Source: Syntrophomonadaceae bacterium (GTDB taxonomy: Bacteria; Bacillota; Syntrophomonadia; Syntrophomonadales; DTU052). From it: DNA of 42,972 nucleotides. Below, piece by piece: positions 4,812 to 25,204 of the stretch. The stretch lies in contig JAAYEQ010000004.1 in NCBI GenBank assembly GCA_012728655.1, forward strand, positions 1 through 42,972, written 5' to 3'. The notes beneath the pieces were generated by a model. That model saw only the letters and a program-made list of their open reading frames with translations. It was not told the origin of the DNA and made no database searches. Positions within the stretch are counted from its first letter, which is position 1. Every line of letters begins with the position of its first letter. A program made the translations under genes and the position numbers.

Positions 4812-6080
4812 TTATGCGGCACTGCCGGCCACCTGAACCGCTATGGCCGGCGCCTCCGGCATAACAACGACGGCGGGGTTATCCCCTACCCGCCGGTAAG
4901 CGTATGCCAGTGCTTCTTCGACCGTGGAACGCCAGATCATGAAAGCTTTCTCCACTACGTCCGGTTCCAGTTTGGTCACCATGACCACCTGGCATTTTTC
5001 AACCACGCGGCAGATAGCATAAGCCTTATGTCCCCCCAGTTCAAAGCGGCGGACAAACCGTTCCTTGATGTCCGCCGGTGTCCGGGCTTCGTTGAGCCAG
5101 CGGGCAAAAGTGCCCTCTCCCAGCCCCTCCTCACATCCGGCCACCAGGATGATTACCCCCCCGGGACGCACCGCCTGCACCGCCGCTTCCAGGGCCTTTT
5201 GGGCCTGGTAGAGGTTAATATCCCGGGGATAGCCTCCACAACCGGCAATGACTATGTCAGCCGGGCGGTCAATATAACATAAGCTGGCCTTTTGGCAAAT
5301 CTCTACCCCTTTCAGCCACGCCTGTTCCAAATCCCCGGCCACCGCCGCCACTATTTCCCCGCGGTCGTCGGTAATCACGTTCAGTATGAAATCCACTTCC
5401 GCCCGGCGCGCACCCTCGATCAGCAGTTCATTCACCGGGTTATTCTCAATATTCCCCAGACAGGCCCGTTCATCGGCCATCAGGGAGTGGGTCGCACTGA
5501 TGGCGGCGCGGTCGGCAACACCGGGAATAATTGACTTGCGACCTCCGGAATACCCGGCAATATAATGGAGGCCAATCAGTCCGGTGGTAACCACCACATC
5601 GGATTCCTTAACCAGCCGGTTTATCCGCAGTTCGAAGCCGCCTTTGAGGGTCCCCAGACTGACCAGGTCACGGTCCGGGTTGTGGTTAACCACCCGACAG
5701 CGTTGGCAGACATCCTCACCATATATCAATCGGCTTTCCTCATCCGTCTGTTCGCGGTGTATGCCGTTGGCAATCAGTAGCGAAACCTGTTCATCGGCTA
5801 TCCCCGCCTTCCGGATTTCATCCAGAAGGGGCGGCAGCATCTGTTTATAGGGAGTTGGTCGGGTTATGTCGTTCACCACTATCAATACCGATTTTGCATC
5901 CTTGCGGACAATAATCTCACCCAACCTCGGGGTACCGATCGGTTGGGCCAAAGCGTTTTCGACTGACGTAAGCGAACTGTCCACGCGGGGAAAGCCCCGG
6001 CGCTCAAGAACCGCTTTTATATTCTCATCCGGCACCGTAAAAGATATTGAGCCTTTGGCAAATTTCCAAGTAAAATCCAT
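4812..6080 (-). CDS. larA: LarA-family nickel-pincer 2-hydroxyacid racemase/epimerase
   Basis: 422 aa LarA-family protein. Residues aligned with the characterised Lactobacillus enzyme are present: D72 and R75 in NDITRPTPYK, H108 in ANGIHRE, H172 and K182 in LHYIAGYSGGRKS, and H198. In the known enzyme the lysine carries the nickel pincer cofactor and two of the histidines are acid/base catalysts. The divergent GlcD/GlcF oxidase pair makes lactate racemisation a natural guess, but LarA relatives also act on other 2-hydroxyacids. The cofactor genes larB, larC and larE are absent from this window and would have to be elsewhere. ATG start after GGGTGGGG; an extended -10 promoter lies just upstream. 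Confidence 0.9.
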   Translation of the reverse strand: MDFTWKFAKGSISFTVPDENIKAVLERRGFPRVDSSLTSVENALAQPIGTPRLGEIIVRKDAKSVLIVVNDITRPTPYKQMLPPLLDEIRKAGIADEQVSLLIANGIHREQTDEESRLIYGEDVCQRCRVVNHNPDRDLVSLGTLKGGFELRINRLVKESDVVVTTGLIGLHYIAGYSGGRKSIIPGVADRAAISATHSLMADERACLGNIENNPVNELLIEGARRAEVDFILNVITDDRGEIVAAVAGDLEQAWLKGVEICQKASLCYIDRPADIVIAGCGGYPRDINLYQAQKALEAAVQAVRPGGVIILVAGCEEGLGEGTFARWLNEARTPADIKERFVRRFELGGHKAYAICRVVEKCQVVMVTKLEPDVVEKAFMIWRSTVEEALAYAYRRVGDNPAVVVMPEAPAIAVQVAGSAA

Positions 6081-6103
6081 GGTTCCCCACCCTTCATCCC
6101 CCT

Positions 6104-6112
6104 ATTATACCA
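6104..6112 (-). promoter_or_regulatory. Extended -10 promoter for the larA-murB operon
   Basis: On the minus strand the sequence reads TGGTATAAT, a TG-extended perfect -10 hexamer (hexamer at 6104-6109), 24 bp before the larA ATG. No good -35 is visible, which is typical for extended -10 promoters. It drives the minus-strand run larA to ppaC. Confidence 0.65.
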
Positions 6113-6165
6113 GAGACCTACTCGGCAACAAATAAAACGCTCCCGCCAGCAGGAAGGCTCTTCCC

Positions 6166-6196
6166 TTGCTTCCCTTTGATCCACTTGTGATATAAT
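6166..6196 (+). promoter_or_regulatory. Promoter for glcD-glcF
   Basis: A perfect -10 hexamer TATAAT at 6191-6196 is preceded by TGA, making an extended -10; a weak -35 TTGCTT at 6166-6171 is 19 bp upstream. Transcription would begin near 6203, which leaves no room for translation from the ATG at 6208 and supports the start at 6241. Confidence 0.65.
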
Positions 6197-6240
6197 AGTG
6201 CCGTTGAATGTATGTAAATTCCTGCGATGGGGAGAGTGCG

Positions 6241-7641
6241 ATGGAGCGAAATGCGTTAAAAAGTCATCTGAAGAATATGCTGGGACCCGACAAGGTCCTG
6301 ACCGAGGACCTGGATCTCCTTTATTACTCTTACGACAGTTCTTTCCTGACCAAGCTGCAGATGGTGTCCCCTGATGTGGTGGTCCTGCCGCGTTCCACCG
6401 AGGACGTGCAGAAGGTCATGCAGTTTGCGTTTGAACACAGAATTCCAGTTACTCCTCGAGGAGCAGGAACCGGAGAAACCGGAGGCAGTGCACCATTGAG
6501 CGGCGGTATTGTCCTGGATTTATCCGCGTGGGATGAGATCGTTGAAGTGGATGCCGCCAACATGCAGGTTACCGTCCGCCCGGGGGTGATCCATTCCGAC
6601 CTGAATGACCACCTGGCAGCGTATAACATGTTTTTCCCTCCGGATCCTGGCAGCAGCAAGATGTGCACCATCGGCGGGATGGTGGCCAATAATGCCAGCG
6701 GACTCCGGGCGGTAAAATACGGGTGCACCGAGCAGTACGTCCTGGGGCTCGAAGTCGTTCTGCCCGACGGTCGCGTGATTACCACCGGCGGTATGAAGTC
6801 CAAGGCCATAAAAAACGTGTCCGGGCTCAACCTGACCAAGCTTTTTGTTGGTTCCGAAGGTGTGCTGGGCGTTATTACCCGCATCCGTCTGCGCTGTTTC
6901 CCCAAGCCCAAATCTCGCGGGATTGTAATGGCTGTCTTCGACAACCTTGACGATGCTCCGGCTACCGTCCTGGAGGTGTACCGAGAGGGTATTCTGCCTT
7001 CCGGCATTGAGATATTGGACTCGTCAGCCATCAGGGCGGTTAACGCCTTTAAGCCTCATATAAACCTTCCCGATGCGGAAGCGATTCTGCTCTTTGAAGT
7101 GGACGGCAATCCTCCCAGCGTTGAGTGGGAAGGAACCACCATTGTCAAGATTGCCGAGAAACGGGCTCGCCAGGTGGAGTGGTCCACCGAGCCCAAGCGG
7201 ATGGCAGCCCTGTGGGAAGGCAGGAGCGTAACGGCTGCGGCGGCGGCCCGAGTTCGTCCCGATGGAAGCCGGATTTTTGCCGGTGAAGACATTGCCGTTC
7301 CCCTGTCCGGAGTTGCCGAGGCTCTCAGGAGGATTCGCGCCCTGGGTGAAAAACACGGCATTCAGGTGGTTAACTACGGTCATATTGGCGACGGTAATGT
7401 GCATACGGCTCCCGTTATCGATCCTGAGAATCCGGCGGAGGTAGAAAAGGTCATGGAACTGGTTCATGACATCCACCTGCTGGCCATTGAACTGCAGGGA
7501 ACCACTACGGGAGAACACGGGGTGGGCGCAGTTCGCCGTGAATACGCCCGTCTGGAACACGGGCCGGCCGTTGATGTTATGCAAAGCATTAAAAAAGCCC
7601 TGGATCCTTACAACATTATGAATCCGGGAAAACTCTTTTAG
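6241..7641 (+). CDS. glcD: FAD-binding 2-hydroxyacid (glycolate/D-lactate) oxidase subunit
   Basis: 466 aa flavoprotein of the GlcD/D-lactate dehydrogenase family. The PP-loop FAD domain includes TPRGAGTGETGGSAPL near residues 71-86 and NNASGLRAVKYG further on. The C-terminal domain has the HIGDGNVH metal/substrate motif and the TTGEHGVG signature. It oxidises a 2-hydroxyacid such as glycolate or D-lactate to the 2-oxoacid, passing electrons to the partner iron-sulfur protein encoded 107 bp downstream. The start at 6241 is chosen because GGGGAG lies 6 nt upstream and the earlier in-frame ATG (6208) falls almost on the predicted transcription start. It is divergent from larA, suggesting racemase plus oxidase for use of both lactate isomers; the true substrate is not determined. 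Confidence 0.92.
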   Translation: MERNALKSHLKNMLGPDKVLTEDLDLLYYSYDSSFLTKLQMVSPDVVVLPRSTEDVQKVMQFAFEHRIPVTPRGAGTGETGGSAPLSGGIVLDLSAWDEIVEVDAANMQVTVRPGVIHSDLNDHLAAYNMFFPPDPGSSKMCTIGGMVANNASGLRAVKYGCTEQYVLGLEVVLPDGRVITTGGMKSKAIKNVSGLNLTKLFVGSEGVLGVITRIRLRCFPKPKSRGIVMAVFDNLDDAPATVLEVYREGILPSGIEILDSSAIRAVNAFKPHINLPDAEAILLFEVDGNPPSVEWEGTTIVKIAEKRARQVEWSTEPKRMAALWEGRSVTAAAAARVRPDGSRIFAGEDIAVPLSGVAEALRRIRALGEKHGIQVVNYGHIGDGNVHTAPVIDPENPAEVEKVMELVHDIHLLAIELQGTTTGEHGVGAVRREYARLEHGPAVDVMQSIKKALDPYNIMNPGKLF

Positions 7642-7748
7642 TCGGACAAATCGAGTCGGACTTGGAGCCGGTGCCGGTGTCGGCAGGTTCCGGCAAGGCC
7701 TATTTTATAATTGCTTAATTGCTGAAGCGGCGGAGGAGGATTTTATTT

Positions 7749-9035
7749 GTGGAGTTGCAACAATTTCCCCTGGTAAAAGATCAACTTAAGAAGTGCGTTC
7801 GCTGCGGTCGCTGCCGCACCGTATGCCCAATTTTTGCCGAAATCCGGAACGAAACGGTAGCTCCCCGGGGCCACGTATTCATGGTGCAAGCCCTGCGGGA
7901 CAATAAGGTATTGCCGGAAAAGCAGGTATATGACCGGCTTTCCAACTGCCTCCTCTGTGAAACCTGTTCCATCAACTGTCCCTCGGGGATCGATATACAC
8001 GAACTTAATAAAGCGGCCCGTTCATTCATTTATAAAAAGAACCCCTCGATGGTAAAGGACCTGTTTCTGGACAGGGTTTGGACCAACCCTACGTTGATGA
8101 GGCTGGGCGGCCTGGCGTTGTGGACCTTCAATAAGTCCGGATTGCAAAAAGCGGCCCGCAGCCTCGGGCTGACCAAACTCCTGCCCGGCGACCTGTCGCA
8201 GGCTGAACAGATCATGCAGGATGTTCCCCGTCGCTCGGCGCGCAGCATCCTGCCGGAAATAAATCCTCCCCGGGGAGAAAAGAAACTGCGCGTAGGATAC
8301 TTCCTAGGCTGTGGAACCGATCTCTTTTCCCCGTCGGTGGCGGTGGCCACGGTTAAGGTTCTGACCTCGCTGGGCTGCGAGGTGATAATCCCACGGGACA
8401 TGAAATGCTGCGGGTTGCCTCACGCGGCCAACGGCAAGATAGACAGTGCCCGTGATCTGATGATACAGAATCTCAAGGTGTTCAACAGTCTCAACCTTGA
8501 CTACATCGTAACCGATTGCGGCTCCTGTTCATCCGCTCTCTCCGAAGAGAGCCTTAAGCTTCTGTTGGTTGATCAGGGATACGATGAAGAAATAGAGAAG
8601 TTCTGTTCCCGGCTTTACGATTTGAACAAGTTCCTGCTCGAGGTACTGGAGATCAGCCCCCGGGAACTGTCATCCCTTGACATGAAGGTTACTTACCATG
8701 ATCCGTGCCACCTGGCCAAGGCCCAGGGTATTCGCCGGGAACCGCGCGAGATCCTGAGAATGATACCGGGACTGGAACTGGTGGAAATGGAGGACTCGGA
8801 GCGTTGCTGTGGCGGGTCTGGCACCTTCAGTATGACGCATTACGATTTGTCGATGAAGGTTCTGGGCAAGAAGATGGACTCCATCGCCCGAACCGGAGCC
8901 AATGTGATCGCAACCTGCTGCCCCAGCTGCACCATGCAGCTTAAACACGGTACCAACCTTTACGGCTATGCGGCGCCGGTAAAACACCCGGTAGAATTAC
9001 TGGCTGAATCCGGCACTCAGTTCCGGCAGCAGTAG
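7749..9035 (+). CDS. glcF: (Fe-S)-binding glycolate/lactate oxidase subunit
   Basis: 428 aa. Two 4Fe-4S ferredoxin motifs occur near the N-terminus (C16-C19-C22-C26 and C67-C70-C73-C77), followed by two CCG-type cysteine-rich domains, visible as GYFLGCG...MKCCGLPHA and YHDPCHLA...ERCCGGSG. This is the GlcF/HdrD-like architecture that accepts electrons from the GlcD flavoprotein and passes them on, probably to quinone or electron-transfer flavoprotein. A GTG start at 7749 is preferred: GGAGGAGG ends 8-9 nt before it, whereas the upstream TTG at 7719 precedes that ribosome binding site. It follows glcD in the same direction, probably one operon. Confidence 0.92.
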   Translation: MELQQFPLVKDQLKKCVRCGRCRTVCPIFAEIRNETVAPRGHVFMVQALRDNKVLPEKQVYDRLSNCLLCETCSINCPSGIDIHELNKAARSFIYKKNPSMVKDLFLDRVWTNPTLMRLGGLALWTFNKSGLQKAARSLGLTKLLPGDLSQAEQIMQDVPRRSARSILPEINPPRGEKKLRVGYFLGCGTDLFSPSVAVATVKVLTSLGCEVIIPRDMKCCGLPHAANGKIDSARDLMIQNLKVFNSLNLDYIVTDCGSCSSALSEESLKLLLVDQGYDEEIEKFCSRLYDLNKFLLEVLEISPRELSSLDMKVTYHDPCHLAKAQGIRREPREILRMIPGLELVEMEDSERCCGGSGTFSMTHYDLSMKVLGKKMDSIARTGANVIATCCPSCTMQLKHGTNLYGYAAPVKHPVELLAESGTQFRQQ

Positions 9036-10305: not shown

Positions 10306-10334
10306 TTGTGTCGATTTGAATCTAGCGTTATACT
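10306..10334 (+). promoter_or_regulatory. Sigma70-type promoter for activator 1
   Basis: TTGTGT (10306-10311), a 17-bp spacer and TATACT (10329-10334). The predicted start is about 40 nt before the ATG at 10381, which also shows that the earlier in-frame TTG/ATG codons around 10306 are not used. Confidence 0.6.
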
Positions 10335-10380
10335 GAAATCATCAAGGGAGCAAGTACGGTGGTCAATTAAGGAGGAAACC

Positions 10381-12324
10381 ATGAACAGGAAGGAACTGCG
10401 CCGCAGGTGGGAGGAACTCCATCACAATCCCCGGGCTCGTGAAACATTGCGGCCGGAGATCCGGGACTCGTGGGAAAGAAGCTTTCAATACCGTGTCAAC
10501 CCCTACCTGAAGGAAAACCCCCATGTGCTTGACGGTTCCAGTTTCAAACAAGCCCTGGAAAATGCCGCTCACCTGATTGAAACCTCGCTGCCGGTAATGA
10601 ATACCCTTTCCGAATTCGTGGCGGGAACCGGTTTTATAGTATTATTGACCGACGCCAATCACTGCCTGTTAAAAATCTTGGGAGACGACGAAATCGTTAA
10701 ATGGGCCAACCGGGGTTTCCTGGTTGAAGGTTCCATGTGGTCGGAAGATCTGGTCGGGACTAACGGCTGTGCCCTCAGCATCGCCCTGGCCCGCCCCATC
10801 TCGGTTTACGGTTATGAACACTTCACGCTCTTTTCTCATATTGCAACGAGCTCTTTTGCTCCCATTATTGATCAGGGCAAGATTATCGGCAGCCTGGGGA
10901 TGGTTGCTCCTTACGACAAAGTAAGCCACCACTCGCTGGGTATGGTGGTCGCTTCCGTAATGCATATTCAATCGAAAATGAATCTGGAGCGTACTACCCG
11001 TTACCACGAAGTAATCATGGAATCCATGTCCGAAGGAGTAATGGTCGTCGACTACAATGGCATAATAACCTATATGAACGGCAATTGTGCCCGCTTTCTC
11101 CAGCAGGAGAATCAGGCGGTTATCGGGCGCAATATATACGACCTGCTGGGCCATACCCCGGATAACCAGTACTTTATCAATATCGTCACCCAGGGCCGGG
11201 TGATTACCGATGAAACGGTTCTGCTTACCATAGGCAAAGACAGGATTCAGTGTAACATCACCTGCAGTCCTCTCAACAATCCCGACCCATCCAACGGCGG
11301 GACCGTCGTTATTATCCGTGAAATCCAGCGTATAAACCGGCTGGTGCGCAACTGGATCGGCGGGGGAGCCAAAATGACCTTCCAGGATATTGTCGGGGTC
11401 AATCCCAAGTTTCAGCAGGTTATCAACATCGCCAAAGCCGCCGCCTCTTCATCGTCCAACGTCCTGTTGTTGGGTGAAAGCGGTACGGGCAAGGATATCA
11501 TTGCCCAGGCCATGCACAATGCCAGCCCGCGGCGAAACAATCCTTTTCTGGCCATAAACTGCGCCGCCCTGCCCCGGGAACTTATTGCCAGCGAGCTCTT
11601 CGGTTACGAGGAAGGAGCCTTTACCGGAGCAAAAAAAGGAGGCAATATCGGCAAATTCGAATTGGCCGACCAGGGTACGATCTTCCTCGATGAAATCGGG
11701 GACATGCCTTTGGACCTGCAGGCATCCCTCCTCCGGGTGCTGGAAGAGAAAAGCGTGCTGCGTCTGGGCGGCAATAAACTCATTCCGGTCAACGTCCGGG
11801 TCATTGCCGCCACCAATAAAGACCTGGACCTGGAAATCAGCCGCAATCGCTTTCGCCGTGATCTGTACTACCGGCTGGGAGTCATCAGGATTACCATACC
11901 TCCATTGCGAGAACGCCCTGAGGATATCCGGCTGCTGGCCGAACATATCACGGAAAGCATATGCAGACGCATCAACAAACCGCCTATGAAACTGGCTCCC
12001 GAGGTCATCGACGCGTTTTTGAAGTACGATTGGCCGGGGAACGTCAGAGAGATGCAAAACGTGCTGGAAGGGGCCATTCAGTTGGCAGAGGGGCCGTTGA
12101 TCACCTACGACCTGGTCAAGGATTACTTCAATCAATCGGGCAACCGGATTTCGGAAACACTGATCAAAGCAGAGAATGAAAACCTTACAATATCGGCGAT
12201 GGAAAAACAGATGATCGAAAGTTATCTGGAAAAATACAAATACAACAAGACCGAAGCCGCCAAAGCCCTGGGAATGTCACGCCGTACCCTGTACCGCCGT
12301 TTGAAAGAGTACAATCTTTTGTAA
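10381..12324 (+). CDS. Sigma54-dependent transcriptional activator 1 (GAF-PAS-AAA-Fis)
   Basis: 647 aa bacterial enhancer-binding protein. Order: a short N-terminal RDSWxRS..VNPY segment (~28-43), a GAF-like sensory domain (~60-200), a PAS domain (~210-310), the sigma54 AAA+ domain with Walker A GESGTGK at 365-371 and the sigma54-contact loop GAFTGA at 412-417, and a Fis-type helix-turn-helix at the C-terminus (TEAAKALGMSRRTLYRRL). The order resembles AcoR-type regulators that sense a metabolite in the N-terminal part. It uses ATP hydrolysis to open sigma54 promoters. The ATG at 10381 has AAGGAGG at ideal spacing. Neighbouring sigma54 promoters before beta-oxidation genes suggest fatty acids or acyl-CoA as signal; that is inference. 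A strong terminator follows. Confidence 0.93.
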   Translation: MNRKELRRRWEELHHNPRARETLRPEIRDSWERSFQYRVNPYLKENPHVLDGSSFKQALENAAHLIETSLPVMNTLSEFVAGTGFIVLLTDANHCLLKILGDDEIVKWANRGFLVEGSMWSEDLVGTNGCALSIALARPISVYGYEHFTLFSHIATSSFAPIIDQGKIIGSLGMVAPYDKVSHHSLGMVVASVMHIQSKMNLERTTRYHEVIMESMSEGVMVVDYNGIITYMNGNCARFLQQENQAVIGRNIYDLLGHTPDNQYFINIVTQGRVITDETVLLTIGKDRIQCNITCSPLNNPDPSNGGTVVIIREIQRINRLVRNWIGGGAKMTFQDIVGVNPKFQQVINIAKAAASSSSNVLLLGESGTGKDIIAQAMHNASPRRNNPFLAINCAALPRELIASELFGYEEGAFTGAKKGGNIGKFELADQGTIFLDEIGDMPLDLQASLLRVLEEKSVLRLGGNKLIPVNVRVIAATNKDLDLEISRNRFRRDLYYRLGVIRITIPPLRERPEDIRLLAEHITESICRRINKPPMKLAPEVIDAFLKYDWPGNVREMQNVLEGAIQLAEGPLITYDLVKDYFNQSGNRISETLIKAENENLTISAMEKQMIESYLEKYKYNKTEAAKALGMSRRTLYRRLKEYNLL

Positions 12325-12599: not shown

Positions 12600-13565
12600 A
12601 TGTTTGATACTATTCGCCCCGGACTTTTTCGACTGGAGATTCCTTTACCGGGCAATCCCCTGAAAGCAGTAAATTCATATGTCTTTAAGGCCCCGGACCG
12701 GAATCTAATCGTGGATACCGGAATGAACCGCCCGGAATGCCTGGAAGCCATGATGAACGGGCTCAGAGAACTGGATATTGACCTTTCCAAAACCGACTTG
12801 TTCATAACCCATATGCACGCCGATCATTCGGGTTTGATAAGCCATCTGGCCACGGAAACCTCCAGGGTTTTCTGCAGTCAAGCGGACGCCGATATCATAA
12901 ACTCAAAAGACAATTGGCGCCCCATGCTGCTTTTCGCCAACCGCAGCGGGTTTCCCCACGATGAGGAAGCGATAAGACAGCATCCGGGATTCAAATACGG
13001 TGTCCGTGAAATAATCGACTTCACCATCGTAAAGGACGGAGACACCATCAACATCGGTGAATACACCTTCCAGTGCATCTCCACCCCCGGACATACCCCG
13101 GGTCATGTCTGCCTGTATGAGCCGAATCAAAAAATCCTGCTTTCCGGAGATCACATTCTGGGGAAGATTACGCCCAATATCTCCTTGTTTGCCGATGACC
13201 GGAATCCGTTGGACGAGTACCTGCAAAGCCTTGATAAAACCTACGCCCTGGAGGTGGAACAAGTGCTGCCGGCGCACCGCCAGATCTTTACCGATTGCCG
13301 GGGCAGGATCAACCAGTTAAGAGAACACCACAATCGACGGGCGGCGGCCATCCTGAACGTTCTGGAAAAGGGACCCCAGAATGCGTTTGAGATCGCCTCG
13401 CAACTTAAATGGGATCTGAGTTATGAACACTGGGATCAGTTCCCCATCTCCCAGAAGTGGTTTGCTACCGGTGAGGTAATCGCCCATCTGAAATACCTGG
13501 AAGCCCTGGGTAAGGTTAAACATAATCAGAGTTCATATGAGATTAAGTATTACTTAACTGCATAA
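12600..13565 (+). CDS. MBL-fold metallo-hydrolase with C-terminal winged helix
   Basis: 321 aa. The metal-binding motif HMHADH is at residues 71-76, with later ligands in the STPGHTPGH and LLSGDHILG segments, giving a di-metal hydrolase of the glyoxalase II/RNase Z-like superfamily. The last ~90 residues, after HNRRAAAILNVLEKGPQNAFEIA, resemble the winged-helix tail seen in LACTB2-type and related MBL proteins. A thioesterase or nucleic-acid role is possible; neither can be settled here. ATG start with AAGGAGG 9 nt upstream. It sits between a sigma54 activator and an MCP-like protein. Confidence 0.85.
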   Translation: MFDTIRPGLFRLEIPLPGNPLKAVNSYVFKAPDRNLIVDTGMNRPECLEAMMNGLRELDIDLSKTDLFITHMHADHSGLISHLATETSRVFCSQADADIINSKDNWRPMLLFANRSGFPHDEEAIRQHPGFKYGVREIIDFTIVKDGDTINIGEYTFQCISTPGHTPGHVCLYEPNQKILLSGDHILGKITPNISLFADDRNPLDEYLQSLDKTYALEVEQVLPAHRQIFTDCRGRINQLREHHNRRAAAILNVLEKGPQNAFEIASQLKWDLSYEHWDQFPISQKWFATGEVIAHLKYLEALGKVKHNQSSYEIKYYLTA

Positions 13566-13741: not shown

Positions 13742-13816
13742 TTCCTAAAGCAGTCCCATAATGCATGAAGATTTTTCACATTTGCCGAGAATACCACACC
13801 AAAGGAGAGGTTCAGT

Positions 13817-14986
13817 TTGGATTGTTTAACCTACAGTGATTTGAAAGCATTTGAAAGGCTCGCCCCTTATCTGGTAGAAACCTACGAACAAGGTGTTATT
13901 TTTCTCATTTCCGATCTGGAAAAGACGGTAGCAAAATACCACTCCAAGAATTTTGACCTGCCGGTGATGAAAGTCGGTGCTCCCCTGGAGAAAGAAGGGA
14001 TGGCGGATACCTGTATCCAGCAAAAAAAGCCGGTAAGCATGGATTTCGTAAGGGCCAAGTACGGAGTACGCGTTCACGCCGAAGTGCTCCCGATATTCGA
14101 TGATGAACAGCCCGAAAGCATCGTGGGCACCCTCAGCATTATTTATCCGGCGGAACCGGTTGTGGCTCGGGCGTTTCCCTACCTCGCCCCCATGCTTTCC
14201 GAGATGTTCCCTGAGGGCGCCTTTATATATATGACCGGTCGTCACCGTTACAGCCACCGCCAGGCATCGGCAAAGTTTGATATGCCGGATATACAGTTGG
14301 AAGCGCCAATTCCGGAGGGCAGTATTCCCTGGGAGGTGCTCAATACTCAAAGACCGGTGTCGCGCGAGTTGGATCCGAGCCAGTACGGGGTTCCGGTTCT
14401 GGTGATGAGCTATCCCCTGTTCGAAGAAGACAGCGACGGCAAACAAAAGCTTACGGGTACTTTCGGACTGGCGTTGCCGAAAACCACAGCCCTTAAACTC
14501 CGTGAGATGTCCAACAACTTGACTCAGGCCCTGGAAGAAATCGCGGGGGTGGTTCAAGAGGTTGCCGCTTCGGCAACGGAAGTCGCCTCCAGCTACAATA
14601 AGGTCGATTCCAATATCAGTGCCGTACATACGCTCTCCAATAACATCAACGAGGTTATGGGCTTTATTAAACAAATAGCGGATGAAACGAAAATGTTGGG
14701 GCTGAATGCGGCCATAGAAGCCGCCCGAGCCGGAGATACCGGCCGGGGATTCGGGGTGGTTGCGGAGGAGATCCGCAAGCTGTCCGATGACTCCAGGCAA
14801 ACAGTTGAAAAAATACGCGATTACACCCGTGAAATTAACGATAAGCTCGAGGAAACCTCATCCTTATCCGAAGCATCAGTCCGCATCAGCGAAGAACAGG
14901 CGGCTGCTACCCAGGAATTGAATGCGAGCATAGAAGAAATCCTGGCCCTGGCTCAGGAACTGGATGCGATATCGAGGATTGTCTAA
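13817..14986 (+). CDS. Soluble MCP-type signalling protein with duplicated sensor module
   Basis: 389 aa. The C-terminal half (~235-389) is a methyl-accepting chemotaxis signalling domain containing the CheA/CheW-contact hairpin tip ([23 protein letters not shown] begins at 284, split here into parts) and [10 protein letters not shown]. There is no transmembrane segment and no HAMP, so it is cytoplasmic. The N-terminal half is made of two similar ~90-residue modules (about 25-112 and 133-222), sharing [48 protein letters not shown] and [18 protein letters not shown]. The signalling domain is short compared with classical MCPs. Start is a TTG with AAAGGAGAGG 6 nt upstream. Probable role: cytoplasmic sensing feeding chemotaxis or another Che-like pathway; ligand unknown. 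Confidence 0.88.
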
Positions 14987-15134: not shown

Positions 15135-16814
15135 TTATTTCTTTTTCTGTTTGGCGATCTCCTCATCGCGCAGGATCCTGCGCAAGGCTTTACCGGTAGT
15201 TGTTCTCGGCAGCGGCTCGGTCCGAAACTCGATCAATTTTGGGACCTTGTAGGGAGCCAGGTGTTCCCGGCAGAAGGCGATCAGTTCTTCTGCGGTTACG
15301 TCTTCGACTCCCGGTTTAAGCTGAACGAATGCTTTGACCGTTTCACCGCGGTATTCGTCAGGTACACCAACAGCCATTGCATCGGCAACTTTCGGATGTT
15401 TAACCAGCACTTCATCAATTTCGCGCGGATAGATATTGAATCCACCGGCGATTATCATATCCTTGGTACGGTCCACGATATAAACATAGCCATCTTCGTC
15501 CATGTAGGCAACGTCACCGCTTTTAAGCCAGCCGTCCTCAGTGAACACCTTGGCTGTTTCTTCCGGATTCCTCCAGTACTCCTTCATGACATAAGGACTC
15601 TTCATCCAGATCTCTCCCGGCTGTCCTAGAGGAACGTCGTTACCGTTTTCATCTACCAGGCGGAGCTCCACGTCAGTATAGGGAACCCCGCAACTGCCGG
15701 GTCTGAAGGCGTTGTAGGGAGTGCTAATAGCGAGAGCCGTGGTTTCACTCATTCCATATCCTTCATGGAAGGAAAAGTCCAATTCGCGGCATTTCTTGAT
15801 TAGTTCCAATGGAGCCGGAGCCGCACCGGTTCCGGTATAAAGGATTTTTTCGTGCCAGTCGATTTCGTTGACCCGGGGGTGATAGAACAGCGCCTGGATC
15901 ATAGTGGGGACACACGGCCAGTAGGTAATGGTATCAAATTTATTAAGGACGTCGAACATCTCATCTACATCAAATCTGGGAAGGATTATCATGGTGCCGA
16001 CACACCAAGCAGCCCAACAGAGGCAGCAGATCTCACCGTACACATGCGAGAAGGGCAAGACACTTAATACGCTCATTTTTTCCAGGGGAACATGGTCCAC
16101 ACAGGCCTGGCTCCAGAGAACGCAACTCATCGTACCGGCAATTATGTTATACTGGGTCAATACCGCGCCTTTGGGAATACCGGTAGTTCCGCCGGTGTAC
16201 TGGATCACCGCCGGATCATCCCATTTGATGTCGACAAGGGGCGGGGCCCATCGCCTGTCAGTTTCCAGTAACTGCGAGAAGTGCAGCCACCCTTCTTCCA
16301 ATCCCAGCTCTTCCGGGGTGCTGACCGGAGTATTCAGCATGAAGTCAGAGAGTTTGGTTATGATAACGAGAGGGATTTTAAATTCCTGGTTAAGTTCTTT
16401 TAATACCGGAACCAATTGATCATAGGCAATTACGCAGCTCAGATCGGCGTCATTAAAAAGGTATCTTAACTCTTCCTTAGTGTACAGGGGATTGAGGTTA
16501 ACGACTACTGCCCCCGCCATGAGAGTGGCCCAGTAAGCAATGACGAACTGAGGACAATTGGGCATCAGTAAACCTATCCGATCACCCTTTTTTATCCCCT
16601 TTTCCACAAAAACATTTGCCAGGCGGCAAACTTTTCGATATAGCTCGCGATAGGTCATTTCCGCACCATAAAACCAGGTAGCGACCTTGTCAGGATGGTA
16701 CGCCGCGGCGTCGCGGAAGATATAATACGCGAATGTTTTTGGATAATTGATGGTCTTTTGTGCCTTCCAGTTGTATGACTTAGTCCAAAAACGGGTTTCG
16801 TAAATAGATGACAT
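15135..16814 (-). CDS. Long-chain fatty acid--CoA ligase (acyl-CoA synthetase 1)
   Basis: 559 aa adenylate-forming enzyme that activates a fatty acid with ATP and CoA, releasing AMP and PPi. The AMP-binding P-loop YTGGTTGIPKG is at 206-216, EGYGMSET and the YIVDRTKDMIIAGGFNIYPREID hinge region follow, and the catalytic lysine lies in PRTTTGKALRR near the C-terminus. No signal peptide. ATG start with TTGGAGG upstream. A sigma54 promoter lies about 195 bp before the start, and the divergent gene encodes a sigma54 activator, so local control is very likely. Chain length preference cannot be told from sequence; medium- or long-chain acids are most likely given the FadNAE-type genes nearby. Confidence 0.93.
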   Translation of the reverse strand: MSSIYETRFWTKSYNWKAQKTINYPKTFAYYIFRDAAAYHPDKVATWFYGAEMTYRELYRKVCRLANVFVEKGIKKGDRIGLLMPNCPQFVIAYWATLMAGAVVVNLNPLYTKEELRYLFNDADLSCVIAYDQLVPVLKELNQEFKIPLVIITKLSDFMLNTPVSTPEELGLEEGWLHFSQLLETDRRWAPPLVDIKWDDPAVIQYTGGTTGIPKGAVLTQYNIIAGTMSCVLWSQACVDHVPLEKMSVLSVLPFSHVYGEICCLCWAAWCVGTMIILPRFDVDEMFDVLNKFDTITYWPCVPTMIQALFYHPRVNEIDWHEKILYTGTGAAPAPLELIKKCRELDFSFHEGYGMSETTALAISTPYNAFRPGSCGVPYTDVELRLVDENGNDVPLGQPGEIWMKSPYVMKEYWRNPEETAKVFTEDGWLKSGDVAYMDEDGYVYIVDRTKDMIIAGGFNIYPREIDEVLVKHPKVADAMAVGVPDEYRGETVKAFVQLKPGVEDVTAEELIAFCREHLAPYKVPKLIEFRTEPLPRTTTGKALRRILRDEEIAKQKKK

Positions 16815-17189: not shown

Positions 17190-17326
17190 CTTTGTTTGGC
17201 AATTGTATATGGGAAAGAATTACTGGCGAACTCGTTAATTAAACGGTAAAGTATCAATATGAGACTGTATCGACAATCAGAAGGAACAAGTATTTGAAAC
17301 CTGCGTCGCAGAAAAGGGGTGCAGCT

Positions 17327-19282
17327 ATGATTAAGAGTGTTGAGGAAGGGATACGTATCTGGAGATCGTTCAGAGAAACAGGAGAATGTGAGGGAATCTC
17401 GATTTCCCCTGAAGTTCGCGACTCATGGCTGCGCAGTGAAAAATTTGGGGTCAACCCTTATAAGACCCGCTGTGATGTGGTGCTGACCGAAATGGAGTTG
17501 GAAATCCGAAAAGCCAGAAATCGAGCTCTGCTTACCCATGCATCCGCCATGATGGCCAATCTGCGAAGGTACACCGACGGTTCGGGATATCTTTTCAGCC
17601 TGGCAGACAGCCGGGGTTGTATTCTGGCAAGGACAGGTGACCGGGAGGCTCTCGATTATGCGGATGGTCAAAATCTGATCGAGGGGTCCAACTGGTCGGA
17701 AAAGGTAATGGGTACAACTTCGGGTTCGGTAGCCACCGTTGAGAACAAACCGGTCCAACTGGTCGGATATGAGTACTGGTGCCTGATGAATCCCTTTGTT
17801 ATCAGTTCATCGTGCCCCATTTTGGACATAGAAGATAAGGTTATCGGTGTGCTGTCCGTCGGTGGACCATATCATCCCATTAATCGCCACACCATGGGAA
17901 TGGTGGTGGCTGCGTCTCGGGCTCTTGAAAGACAGCTTGCTCTGCAGACGGCTTTTGAACAAAGTGAGATGGAAAACCTTTATAAGACAATTGTCATGGA
18001 GTCATTGTCCGACGGGGTCTTGACCCTGGATCGCAAGGGCAGGGTCATGGTTATGAATAAGCTGGCGGCTCAAATCCTGGGGATTGATCCGGGTTCCACT
18101 CTGAACAAAACCCTGAAAGAATTGATGCCGCCGTATAACGAGCCCCTCTTTCAGGCTATATCGGAAAACCGGGAGCTAATCAAACCTCTGGAGATTCGCC
18201 GCAAGTATGATCGGTTGAAAACAACGGTAAGCTGCATCCCGCTCGTGGGCAAAAACAATCAGGTTTTGGGAACCGTGGTCATTCTTCAACCCATTCAAAA
18301 GTACAAACGTCCGCTGGAAAAGGTATGCGGTGCTCGCGCCGGGATCACCTTTAATGACATAATCGGAAACAGCAGCGAACTGAATTATGCGCTCAGGCTC
18401 GCCGAAATAGCTTCGAAGTCTGACTCCAACGTTCTTCTGCTCGGTGAAAGCGGTGTGGGCAAGGAGGTGTTCGCCCAGGCTATTCACAACGCCAGCAGAC
18501 GCCGTGATGAACCTTTCATTGCCATAAATTGCGCCGCCGTACCCCGCGAACTGATTTCCAGCGAGCTGTTCGGCTACGAGGAAGGTGCTTTTACCGGCGC
18601 CCGCAAAGGAGGCAATCCCGGCAAACTTGAACTGGCCGACCAGGGTACGCTCTTCCTTGACGAGATCGGAGAAATGCCCCTTGATTTGCAGGGTTCGCTG
18701 TTGCGATTCCTGGAAGAAGGAAACATTATGCGTCTTGGAGGACGGGAGGTTATACCGGTGGATGTCCGCATAATCGCCGCCAGCAATAAGAATCTTAAGG
18801 ATGAAGTCATGAAGGGGCGTTTTCGTCTGGATCTCTATTATCGGCTCAAAGTAATTGACATCGAAATCCCCCCTTTGCGCATGCGAAAAGACGATATCCC
18901 GGGACTGGTTGAGCATTTTGTAAAAACAATCGGATCCAGGCTGGGCAGGAAAATAACCGGTATCGACCCCGGAGCCATGGAGATTCTTCTCAACTACGAC
19001 TGGCCGGGCAATGTCAGGGAACTGAAGAACGTTATTGAACGAGCCGTTAACATCGCCGGCGGTGATGTGTTAACAGTGGACGACCTGCCACCCGACATCA
19101 AAGAGGATAATTTAAAATCACCTCTTATCTGGGAACAAAGCCTTAATAAAGACGAAATTGAGAAACGTCTGATAATGGACTGCCTCCGAAAGCATAACGG
19201 CAACCGCAATCTGGCTGCCAAAGAATTGGGGATCTCCAGGGCTACGATATTTCGAAAGATTAAAAAATACTCGATCAATTAG
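17327..19282 (+). CDS. Sigma54-dependent transcriptional activator 2 (GAF-PAS-AAA-Fis)
   Basis: 651 aa from the ATG at 17327. A paralogue of activator 1, with the same order: RDSWLRS..VNPY segment, GAF-like domain, PAS (~215-330), AAA+ domain with Walker A GESGVGK at 373-379 and GAFTGA at 420-425, and a C-terminal Fis helix-turn-helix (NRNLAAKELGISRATIFRKI). The ATG at 17327 has AAGGGG upstream and gives the same N-terminal length as activator 1; a TTG at 17294 with AAGGA 8 nt upstream is the alternative and would add 11 residues. It is divergent from a sigma54-driven acyl-CoA synthetase gene, making that gene its most likely target. Signal presumably a fatty acid or derivative (inference). 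Confidence 0.92.
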   Translation: MIKSVEEGIRIWRSFRETGECEGISISPEVRDSWLRSEKFGVNPYKTRCDVVLTEMELEIRKARNRALLTHASAMMANLRRYTDGSGYLFSLADSRGCILARTGDREALDYADGQNLIEGSNWSEKVMGTTSGSVATVENKPVQLVGYEYWCLMNPFVISSSCPILDIEDKVIGVLSVGGPYHPINRHTMGMVVAASRALERQLALQTAFEQSEMENLYKTIVMESLSDGVLTLDRKGRVMVMNKLAAQILGIDPGSTLNKTLKELMPPYNEPLFQAISENRELIKPLEIRRKYDRLKTTVSCIPLVGKNNQVLGTVVILQPIQKYKRPLEKVCGARAGITFNDIIGNSSELNYALRLAEIASKSDSNVLLLGESGVGKEVFAQAIHNASRRRDEPFIAINCAAVPRELISSELFGYEEGAFTGARKGGNPGKLELADQGTLFLDEIGEMPLDLQGSLLRFLEEGNIMRLGGREVIPVDVRIIAASNKNLKDEVMKGRFRLDLYYRLKVIDIEIPPLRMRKDDIPGLVEHFVKTIGSRLGRKITGIDPGAMEILLNYDWPGNVRELKNVIERAVNIAGGDVLTVDDLPPDIKEDNLKSPLIWEQSLNKDEIEKRLIMDCLRKHNGNRNLAAKELGISRATIFRKIKKYSIN

Positions 19283-21590: not shown

Positions 21591-22778
21591 TTATTTTATC
21601 AGTTCGAAAATGGTAGCCGCGCCCTGACCGCCGCCGATGCACATGGTTACCATACCGTACTTGACATCACGTCTCTCCATCTCATACATCAGGGTTGCGG
21701 TCAGCTTGGCTCCGGTCGCACCCATCGGGTGCCCCAGGGCAATGGCGCCGCCGTTCACGTTCACGATTTCCTCATTCAATCCCAGCTCTCTAATGCAGTA
21801 GATTGCCTGGGATGCAAAGGCCTCGTTCAACTCAATCAAACCGATGTCCTTCAGTTCCAGACCGGTCCGCTTCAGTACCTTGGGCACCGCATATACCGGA
21901 CCGATTCCCATAATCGCAGGATCACATCCCGCTACCGCAAAGCCCACGAATTTCAGACGGGGCTTGATCCCCAGTTCCAGGGCTTTCTCCTTGGACATTA
22001 CCATTACGGCTGCCGCTCCGTCGGTGGTCTGCGAGGAGTTGGCCGCCGTTACCGTCCCGCCGGGCACGAAGGCCGGACGCAGCTTGGCCATCGCTTCCAG
22101 GGATACATCGTAACGGATGCCCTCTTCGTAATCATACATGAACTCCTTGGTCACCGGCTTGCCGTCCGGTCCCAGAACCGTCTGCTTAACCGGTACCGGC
22201 ACGATCTCGTCCTTGAACTTGCCGCCCTGCATGGCAGCCGCAGCTTTCTTCATGCTGTTGTAACCGAAAAGGTCCTGGTCTTCCCGGGTTATATTGAAGC
22301 GTTTGGCCACATTCTCCGCGGTCTGGCCCATGCTGGTATACACCTTGGAGATCTCGGGGTCCAAAACCAGGTCCGGGTTGGGTCTGGTTATGCCGCCCAT
22401 GGCAATCATGCTCATGTGCTCAACCCCGCCGGCCAATACCACGTCACAGCGGTTGGCCATGATGGCTTCCGCCGCAAAGGCTATGGCCTGGGAGCCCGAG
22501 GAGCAGAACCGGTTTACCGTACAGGCGGGAACCGACTCGGGAATCCCGGCATACCGGGCGGTAATCCGGGCGGTGTTCATCCCGCACGCCTGCTCCGGAG
22601 TTGCGCATCCCCAAATCACGTCGTCTATCATCTCGGGCTTGAAGTTGGGCCCGCATCTCCTAATTGCTTCTTCCATGCAGAGTTTCCCGAGAAACTCAGG
22701 CCGAACGTCTCTTAAGCTCCCCCTTGGAGCCTTGCCACCAGCGGTACGTACTGCTGAAACGATAACAGCTTCTCTCAC
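21591..22778 (-). CDS. fadA: Acetyl-CoA C-acyltransferase (thiolase)
   Basis: 395 aa type II thiolase. The nucleophilic cysteine is C92 in [10 protein letters not shown]; the C-terminal [15 protein letters not shown] (histidine) and TMCIGGGQG (second cysteine) motifs are intact. It cleaves 3-ketoacyl-CoA with CoA to acetyl-CoA and shortened acyl-CoA. Start is a GTG with GGGGAGG 8 nt upstream. It follows the fadN-type gene by 41 bp on the same strand, so both are probably read from the sigma54 promoter at 25353-25368. Confidence 0.95.
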
Positions 22779-22819: not shown

Positions 22820-25204
22820 TTAATTGCGCAAAGGCTTGCCGGTTTTCAGCATGTGAGCTATACGCTCCTGGGTCTTGGGTTCGCCGCACAGGCTCAGGAA
22901 AGCTTCTCTCTCCAGGTCCAGGAGGTACTGCTCGGTTATCGGTGTGCCTCTCATAACTTCTCCGCCGGACATAACATCGACCAGCTTGCAGCAGACGAAC
23001 CAATCATACTCGCTGATAACTCCCGCCAGTTTCATACCCATGGTTCCAACCTTGAGTAGTGCGGTCTCGTTCTTGCCCGGGGCTAAAATGGGCTTGCTGA
23101 CAGGTGCCGCATATCCGGCCTCTACCATGTCGAGGACCCGCTTTTTGGCATCACCGAGCAGGAAGTCGGGGTTCATGGTAATCCCGTCAGTAGGTTTAAG
23201 GTATCCCAGACTTACAGCCTGCTTCGCACTCGAGGATGTAGAGGCTTGAGCTATATTCTGGAAGTAGACCTGTAAGAAGTCTACCGGGTGAGCTGTTGTT
23301 CCTTTAACCCTGTCGAGGGCTCTCAATGTCATTTCTTTTACACCGCCCCCGGCAGGTATCAGCCCGAAGCCGAATTCAATCAGACCAATGAACGACTCCG
23401 CTGCCGCCTGTGCCGCCGCTCCGTGCATGATCAGCTCGCAGCCGCTTCCCAGTGCTTTGCCGTGAGGAGCAACCACAATTGGCTTGTCGGAGTATTTGAC
23501 GGCCATGAAGGCATCCTGCATTTTCTTCAGGTTAGCATCAATGACATCCCATGCTTTCGACTCGATGGCCTTTGCGATCACGCTCATGTCGGAACCCGTG
23601 CAGAAATCTCTGCCTGCACTGTAGATTACCATACCTTCCCAATCGGGCTTCTTCAGCTCGGCTTGAGCCTGCATCAGGGCATCTACCACTTCGCCGGTCA
23701 TAACCGAGCCCTTGGTGGTGATGGCGAAGCAGAGTACCCCATCGCCGATATCATAAAGGGTAGCCGCAGGGTTGGAGAAGACCACCTTGTTCTTGGCCTT
23801 CAATTCTGGCAGTACAATAACCTCGGGTTTGTATGTAACCGGTACATACTTCTTGTCGGGAATCGAATAGTAGTACTCGATGCCGTCCTCATACTTGTAA
23901 AATGCGGTTATTCCGGCATCGAACATTTCCTTAACCCACGGAGCCACTGAGCCGCCTTCGGCTTCAATGCGGGCTACGTACTTGGGCAGGTCCAAACCGT
24001 CCCACATTCTGAAGGGACCGGCTTGCCAGTTGTAACCCCACTCCATGGCGTGGTCAATGTTGATTATATCATCGGATATTTCGGGTATCTTCTTGGTTGC
24101 GTACTGGAGAATTCCGCTGTTAATCTTCCATACCAATTGTGCCGCTTTGTCATCCCCTTCATAGAAAGCAGCAAGCTTTTCCGGAAGGGTCTTGGCAGCC
24201 TTGGCTTTTTCAAGGCTCGGGAAATCGGCGGGTTTCAGAGGTACATACTCATAGGTTGCCGGATCCAGCATCAGCCTTTCCTTGCCAACCTTCTTGTAGA
24301 ATCCGCCGCCGGTCTTATTCCCCAGAATCCCTTTCTCTACATTTTTCTTGAACAGTTCCGGTACTTCATAGAACTTCTTGTCCTCAGGATCGGTCAGAAC
24401 ATCATGTATCGACTGGGTGCCGTTAACTGCAATATCAAGTCCAACCAGGTCCATCAAACCGAAGGCTCCGGTTCTGGGTCTTCCCATGGGCGGACCGCAA
24501 ATATCGTCAATCTCGGATATGGTCAGTCCCAGTTCGTCCATCAATCTGCAAATGGTAGGACCGCCCTGATTGCCGAAACGGTTGGCGATAAACCCGGGAG
24601 TGTCTTTACACCAGACAATGCTCTTACCAAGTTTGCGCTCACCGAAATCGGCCATGAACTGCATGACCTCAGGCAGGGTATCTTTGCCGGGTATGATTTC
24701 CAACAGTTTCATGAAACGAACCGGATTGAAGAAGTGAGTTCCCAACCAGTACTGGCGGAATTCAAGGGGCATATCTTCGGCCATGGTGGTGATGGAAATG
24801 GTCGAGGTGTTGGAACTGACAATAGTTCCAGGTTTTACATAAGGCTGAATTTTCTTAAGCAGGTCTTTCTTGATTTGCAGGTTCTCCGGCACAGCCTCTA
24901 CTATCCAATCAACTTCGGACAGCCACTCCAGGTTGTCCTCCATATTCCCGCAGGTAACGAGATCTGCAAGCTCTTTATCCATGAATTGCCGGGTTTTTAG
25001 GGCAAGAGCTTTATTGTTTTCGGCTATTCTATTTCTGAAAGCCGGGCTATTTGGATCAACTCCCTTGGCCTTGTCTTCATCGGTATATTTGGGTACGATG
25101 TCCAGAAGGTAACTAGGAATTCCCGCATTGGCTAGTTGTGCAGCAATACCACTTCCCATGGTTCCTGAGCCTATAATTGCGGCTTTTCTAATCCTTTTCT
25201 TCAC
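22820..25204 (-). CDS. fadN: 3-hydroxyacyl-CoA dehydrogenase/enoyl-CoA hydratase fusion (FadN type)
   Basis: 794 aa bifunctional protein, with dehydrogenase first and hydratase last as in Bacillus FadN (opposite to proteobacterial FadB). The NAD-binding loop IGSGTMGSGIAAQLANAG is at residues 11-28, THFFNPVRFMKLLEIIPG follows, and a second dehydrogenase C-terminal domain reaches about 430. The crotonase part from about 480 contains GSGCEL and IEFGFGLIPAGGG, each carrying a glutamate at the expected catalytic places. It hydrates enoyl-CoA and oxidises 3-hydroxyacyl-CoA to 3-ketoacyl-CoA. GTG start with GGAGG upstream. Leader of about 140 nt from the sigma54 promoter. First gene of the fadN-fadA unit. 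Confidence 0.95.
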   Translation of the reverse strand: MKKRIRKAAIIGSGTMGSGIAAQLANAGIPSYLLDIVPKYTDEDKAKGVDPNSPAFRNRIAENNKALALKTRQFMDKELADLVTCGNMEDNLEWLSEVDWIVEAVPENLQIKKDLLKKIQPYVKPGTIVSSNTSTISITTMAEDMPLEFRQYWLGTHFFNPVRFMKLLEIIPGKDTLPEVMQFMADFGERKLGKSIVWCKDTPGFIANRFGNQGGPTICRLMDELGLTISEIDDICGPPMGRPRTGAFGLMDLVGLDIAVNGTQSIHDVLTDPEDKKFYEVPELFKKNVEKGILGNKTGGGFYKKVGKERLMLDPATYEYVPLKPADFPSLEKAKAAKTLPEKLAAFYEGDDKAAQLVWKINSGILQYATKKIPEISDDIINIDHAMEWGYNWQAGPFRMWDGLDLPKYVARIEAEGGSVAPWVKEMFDAGITAFYKYEDGIEYYYSIPDKKYVPVTYKPEVIVLPELKAKNKVVFSNPAATLYDIGDGVLCFAITTKGSVMTGEVVDALMQAQAELKKPDWEGMVIYSAGRDFCTGSDMSVIAKAIESKAWDVIDANLKKMQDAFMAVKYSDKPIVVAPHGKALGSGCELIMHGAAAQAAAESFIGLIEFGFGLIPAGGGVKEMTLRALDRVKGTTAHPVDFLQVYFQNIAQASTSSSAKQAVSLGYLKPTDGITMNPDFLLGDAKKRVLDMVEAGYAAPVSKPILAPGKNETALLKVGTMGMKLAGVISEYDWFVCCKLVDVMSGGEVMRGTPITEQYLLDLEREAFLSLCGEPKTQERIAHMLKTGKPLRN

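Follow-up and report, generated by a model that had tools for sequence, protein, structure and literature searches.

What does a chemoreceptor without a membrane anchor perceive when its gene lies amid those of fatty-acid breakdown, and to what output is it coupled? These questions are raised by a 389-residue protein of a Syntrophomonadaceae bacterium, encoded within the 42,972 nucleotides of contig JAAYEQ010000004.1 that we analysed (hereafter the window; Table 1). A preliminary description, made from the sequence by itself, had taken it for a cytoplasmic protein with a short signalling domain, and this is confirmed. The protein belongs to the methyl-accepting chemotaxis proteins (MCPs) and is soluble: the MCPsignal model PF00015 matches with E 2.2e-26 (93.2 bits, against a curated cut-off of 34.6), and there is no membrane helix, since hydropathy over 19 residues peaks at only 1.25. 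The reading frame begins with TTG, just downstream of a ribosome-binding-like site. Searches upstream of the gene for sigma-54, sigma-D and sigma-70 patterns found none, and no support was found for the antisense frame that shadows it (13826-14800).

Table 1. Position, strand and basis of assignment of the receptor gene, its parts and its neighbours in the window
Feature	Coordinates	Strand	Basis
Sigma-54 activator, GAF + PAS + AAA + Fis	10306-12324	+	Domain search; synteny conserved
Metallo-beta-lactamase-fold hydrolase (MBL), upstream of receptor	12600-13565	+	Domain search; synteny conserved
Ribosome-binding-like site AAAGGAGAGG	13801-13810	+	6 nt upstream of TTG; sequence
Receptor gene, 389-aa cytosolic tandem-module MCP	13817-14986	+	ORF list and domain search
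Sensor module 1, Cache/PAS-like, about residues 9-111 (N-terminal helix 6-22)	13841-14149	+	Self-alignment, profiles, predicted model
Sensor module 2, about residues 114-221 (own helix 115-129)	14156-14479	+	Self-alignment, profiles, predicted model
Short MCP signalling hairpin (residues 222-389; each arm some 11-12 heptads long)	14480-14983	+	PF00015 match
Hairpin tip, expected CheA/CheW contact	14678-14776	+	Conservation in relatives
AMP-binding acyl-CoA ligase, convergent neighbour	15135-16814	-	Domain search, locus comparison
Second sigma-54 activator, GAF + PAS	17294-19282	+	Domain search
Acyl-CoA dehydrogenase, 610 aa	19390-21222	-	Domain search
Thiolase	21591-22778	-	Domain search
3-hydroxyacyl-CoA dehydrogenase / enoyl-CoA hydratase	22820-25204	-	Domain search

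The N-terminal half had been read as two tandem modules of some 90 residues each, not recognised as a named domain. The two halves do align end to end, with a BLOSUM62 local score of 117; this is far above chance, the scores of 2000 shuffles averaging 26.1 (sd 4.6) and never exceeding 49. Profile-profile comparison of one half with the other, based on six relatives, gives a probability of 99.5% and E 1.5e-22. The duplication thus stands, with a module length closer to 105 residues than to 90, and a profile of one module recovers two copies in tandem relatives and one in relatives of about 280 residues. No Pfam or NCBIfam model exceeds its cut-off in this half of the receptor, GAF and dCache models included. 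Some matches, weak or scattered, do occur in a minority of 40 relatives: to sCache_3, to dCache_1 (weakly, in 5 of the 40), to Cache_WalK and, in a few relatives, to GAF_2. A sequence search of PDB chains returned weak or chance-like matches only, the best being to Ika8 (presumably a designed protein), and homology was not accepted. The two copies differ in their motifs: 30 of the 40 relatives conserve in module 1 a YGxR motif containing Arg85, module 2 has YGxP instead, and RQxSxKFD is conserved in module 2. Such differences would fit different pockets.

An AlphaFold2 model of residues 1-222, built with the sequences of 40 relatives, has a mean pLDDT of 94.7 over the module pair and gives both modules the same order of elements, each having its own N-terminal helix followed by beta-beta-alpha-beta-alpha-beta-beta. 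The two halves are predicted with high confidence to share one Cache/PAS-like fold, a point that the preliminary description had proposed to check; neither different folds in the two halves nor one known sequence family extending over both was found. In Foldseek the best match of the full-length model is chain A of 9a72, an integrative model of YfmS with CheW (279 columns, E 1e-11), while the module pair alone matches YfmS at 23% identity and an rmsd of 3.8 across 120 columns (E 9.6e-7), as well as the Cache chemoreceptor domains of MkcA, TlpA, DctB, PctB and PctC. Because 9a72 is itself a computed, cross-link-restrained model, the likeness to YfmS involves predictions on both sides. The YfmS protein of Bacillus subtilis, which has been modelled with CheW, is likewise cytosolic, with its input fold joined directly to the MCP hairpin, but it has a single module and 286 residues. 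The module, although correctly said to match no named database domain, is therefore not new to nature, being what YfmS-like soluble MCPs use as their input domain, and the receptor is a tandem variant of these, the tandem arrangement being the new part. A match on a plasmid of Niallia, found in a single place, aligns with residues 123-378, i.e., module 2 and the hairpin, at 30% identity. The sCache_2 and sCache_3 domains, such as that of Pseudomonas syringae PscD, have a similar fold but are extracytoplasmic and belong to membrane receptors, whereas the modules here are cytosolic and have no significant Pfam match. HemAT and other soluble MCPs share the lack of a membrane segment; HemAT, however, senses with a globin and not with Cache/PAS-like modules.

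That the gene lies beside genes of fatty acid metabolism was also correctly observed, and the window carries an acyl-CoA ligase, an acyl-CoA dehydrogenase, a thiolase and a 3-hydroxyacyl-CoA dehydrogenase. The ligase (FadD) and the acyl-CoA dehydrogenase are encoded on the opposite strand and so cannot share the receptor's operon. A sister genome keeps the window's gene order up to the end of its contig. In a second genome, from the same family, the sigma-54 activator, MBL, receptor, acyl-CoA dehydrogenase and thiolase have stayed together (loci L096 and L058 being the basis of these two comparisons). At two paralogue loci (L057 and L077) a ligase, a thiolase and an HpaB-family gene adjoin the receptor. 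Elsewhere it has near it a hydroxyacyl-CoA dehydrogenase, a hydratase, a thiolase and an acyl-CoA dehydrogenase (L067, where the last ends 16 bp upstream of the receptor frame on the same strand), or beside it several thiolases (L086) or a family III CoA transferase and a ligase (L075); tandem receptors are also adjoined by glcD/glcF-like oxidase genes (L063, L066 and L073) or by a nickel-insertion (PF01969) gene (L070). Some of the relatives' receptors are apparently co-transcribed with acyl-CoA dehydrogenase or with cheW. As separate observations, the window has upstream of the receptor (4812-9035) a gene for a LarA-type lactate racemase next to glcD/glcF-like oxidase genes, and the HpaB-family genes, which we take to be 4-hydroxybutyryl-CoA-dehydratase-like, directly adjoin tandem receptors at L077:3480-5006, L057:3685-5169 and L062:2581-4032. 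A small membrane-like neighbour at L014 was considered as an acetate transporter and rejected, having no domain match at 1e-10.

The association was counted in ten related genomes within a radius of 5 kb, the markers being the window's own beta-oxidation enzymes and some locus classes having been corrected by hand (L158 and L159 are tandem; L088 and L089 lie outside the ten-genome test). A marker accompanies 9 of 20 tandem receptors versus 1 of 51 module-less MCPs (Fisher p 1.9e-5), in counts whose loci are partly related by descent and not all independent; with the two orthologues of the receptor gene removed, the comparison is 7 of 18 with 1 of 51 (p 2e-4). Single-module receptors have a marker in 3 of 9 cases. 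Receptors in which a Rossmann domain precedes the tandem have one in only 1 of 9, and the linkage may therefore not extend to them. A wider marker set (CoA transferases, the HpaB family and glcD/glcF) gives stronger p-values, still <= 2e-4 without the same-genus genomes, but since these markers were chosen after the loci had been seen we prefer the test with the window's enzymes.

Since the tandem receptors lie near genes for burning fats and acids far more often than other MCPs do, an internal metabolite is probably what they use to steer the cell. As is well established, a small ligand bound by a Cache or PAS domain causes a change that is relayed through the domain's C-terminal helix. We think it more likely than not that the protein is a cytosolic chemoreceptor whose tandem YfmS-type modules sense an intracellular carboxylate or acyl metabolite, with output through CheW and CheA to the flagellar motor. 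The two modules would bind or monitor a small molecule (a free acid, an acyl-CoA or a near product) derived from the breakdown of carboxylates or fatty acids; the change would travel along the continuous helix leaving module 2 into the MCP hairpin, the tip of which would dock to CheW and CheA, and the motor would in this way be biased by metabolic state. We infer here the class of ligand, the direction of the response and the control of the kinase, and likewise that both modules sense the same or a related ligand and that the cell uses the signal for taxis by metabolic state. As a precedent, for the ligand class only, the single-Cache PscD of P. syringae binds C2/C3 carboxylates (PMC5062169). 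Syntrophothermus lipocalidus, an oxidiser of C4-C10 fatty acids, is weakly motile by means of flagella (PMC3035303).

Against metabolite reading it counts, among other points, that 11 of the 20 tandem receptors lack a window-type beta-oxidation gene in the surrounding 5 kb and that such genes abound in the related genomes. The protein could instead be an ordinary soluble YfmS-like receptor for an unrelated signal (redox, pH, a cofactor or an amino acid), with neighbours that are explained simply by how numerous beta-oxidation genes are in syntrophs. PAS and Cache folds take many ligands, the publications consulted, which call YfmS an orphan or soluble chemoreceptor, state none for it, and many tandem receptors do without beta-oxidation neighbours. 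Nevertheless, module-less MCPs of the very same genomes rarely have such neighbours, and the contrast of 1/51 with 9/20 makes gene abundance alone an insufficient explanation; we regard an unrelated signal as somewhat unlikely.

As to the output of the metabolite-sensing receptor that we favour, MCP hairpins control CheA via CheW. The helices of this hairpin are predicted at residues 222-304 and 312-388, with moderate model confidence for the MCP part, and its tip is invariant or nearly so in six relatives; the methylation-site consensus as used here has two matches, at residues 243 and 362, both being pattern matches only. The genes cheA and cheW, which it had been proposed to look for, are both present. 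The host genome has one cheA, several cheW paralogues and cheR, with a cluster of flhA, an flhF-like gene, cheB, cheA, cheW, cheC, cheD and a sigma factor gene, and fliG on the same contig. In Lucifera butyrica and in a soil MAG, a cheW follows the tandem receptor at 15 bp. Given the nearly invariant tip, the che set and the adjacent cheW in these two relatives, coupling to CheW/CheA is very likely. Flagellin was not found in the host MAG, and motor output may for this reason be absent or unassembled, although the assembly (96% complete, 79 contigs) may simply have missed the gene. Perhaps, then, the protein is a regulator which senses a metabolite with its modules but has lost its role in swimming, its hairpin serving some other output, such as CheW sequestration or action on the adjacent sigma-54 activators. 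These flank the gene on both sides, and an activator of this kind also adjoins several relatives; the same module also occurs with a LytTR domain at L052. With flhA and fliG accompanying the che set, the tip conserved and cheW adjacent in two relatives, this seems to us improbable.

It is more improbable still that the module pair is a canonical dCache domain relocated to the cytosol and not a duplicated single-module receptor: Foldseek matches to dCache chemoreceptors (TlpA, TlpC, DctB and PctB, membrane receptors which also have two consecutive PAS-like units) do cover both modules, but the low TM-scores (about 0.35-0.43) and high rmsd (>7 A) mark the pair as a tandem of YfmS-type Cache/PAS-like modules, the N-terminal helices at 6-22 and 115-129 are separate whereas a dCache has a single long one common to both units, and the modules are homologous in sequence to each other and to those of single-module MCPs.

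The search detected the YfmS-type module in 109 of 398 Bacillota genomes. Many of the proteins, which occur across Bacillota, consist of a single module joined to an MCP hairpin and are about 270-300 residues long. A second type, of about 380-420 residues, carries the module twice, and a third, of about 490-520, has a Rossmann domain in front of the module pair and the MCP hairpin. In a tree of 92 modules (111 columns, quick method), 35 of the 37 second modules fall into one group (SH-aLRT 96) with the first modules outside it, and the labels of module position require 5 changes versus 41 in shuffles. This pattern fits one old duplication that preceded the spread into several families, and not a recent or local event. 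The window's genome contains three tandem receptors. A fourth copy (C47:113240, E 0.46) proved to be a chance match within a thioredoxin-like reading frame, and the internal stop reported for the paralogue on C46 falls at the end of the match, that gene being intact. The sister genome also contains, some 16 kb away from its orthologue of the receptor gene, another tandem receptor that has diverged very strongly (L084, G391:C58:8601-9227) and to which the window's genome shows no match. At L090:5684-7159, L091-L095, L080 and L160-L162, the two modules and the MCP part are preceded at the N-terminus by an NAD-binding Rossmann domain (GFO_IDH_MocA-like, with a GGGKGGT motif), and the look of these proteins suggests chemoreceptors that read NAD(H) or a metabolite. 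The window's genome also encodes a 290-residue protein (L005, C77:77766) with a Rossmann-like GAGKGGTSIL start and an MCP hairpin, without Cache-like modules. A 153-residue lone module protein without an MCP domain lies directly downstream of a tandem receptor at L079:7881-8339. L052 (1180-1953, minus strand) encodes a single YfmS-type module joined to a LytTR DNA-binding domain, which puts the same sensor in a transcription factor; the module is therefore not tied to chemotaxis.

YfmS-like soluble receptors are common in Bacillota, and the genomic linkage described here leads to a concrete hypothesis for their ligand, namely carboxylate or acyl metabolites. The tandem receptors are good proteins with which to test it, being soluble and small and carrying their sensor in duplicate. 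More tentatively, they may constitute a distinct, old subfamily that reads the state of beta-oxidation and related carboxylate breakdown inside the cell and that would provide fatty-acid syntrophs with a taxis, based on metabolism, toward the acids that they oxidise. If this is true, syntrophic fatty-acid oxidisers would locate their substrate by monitoring their own beta-oxidation.
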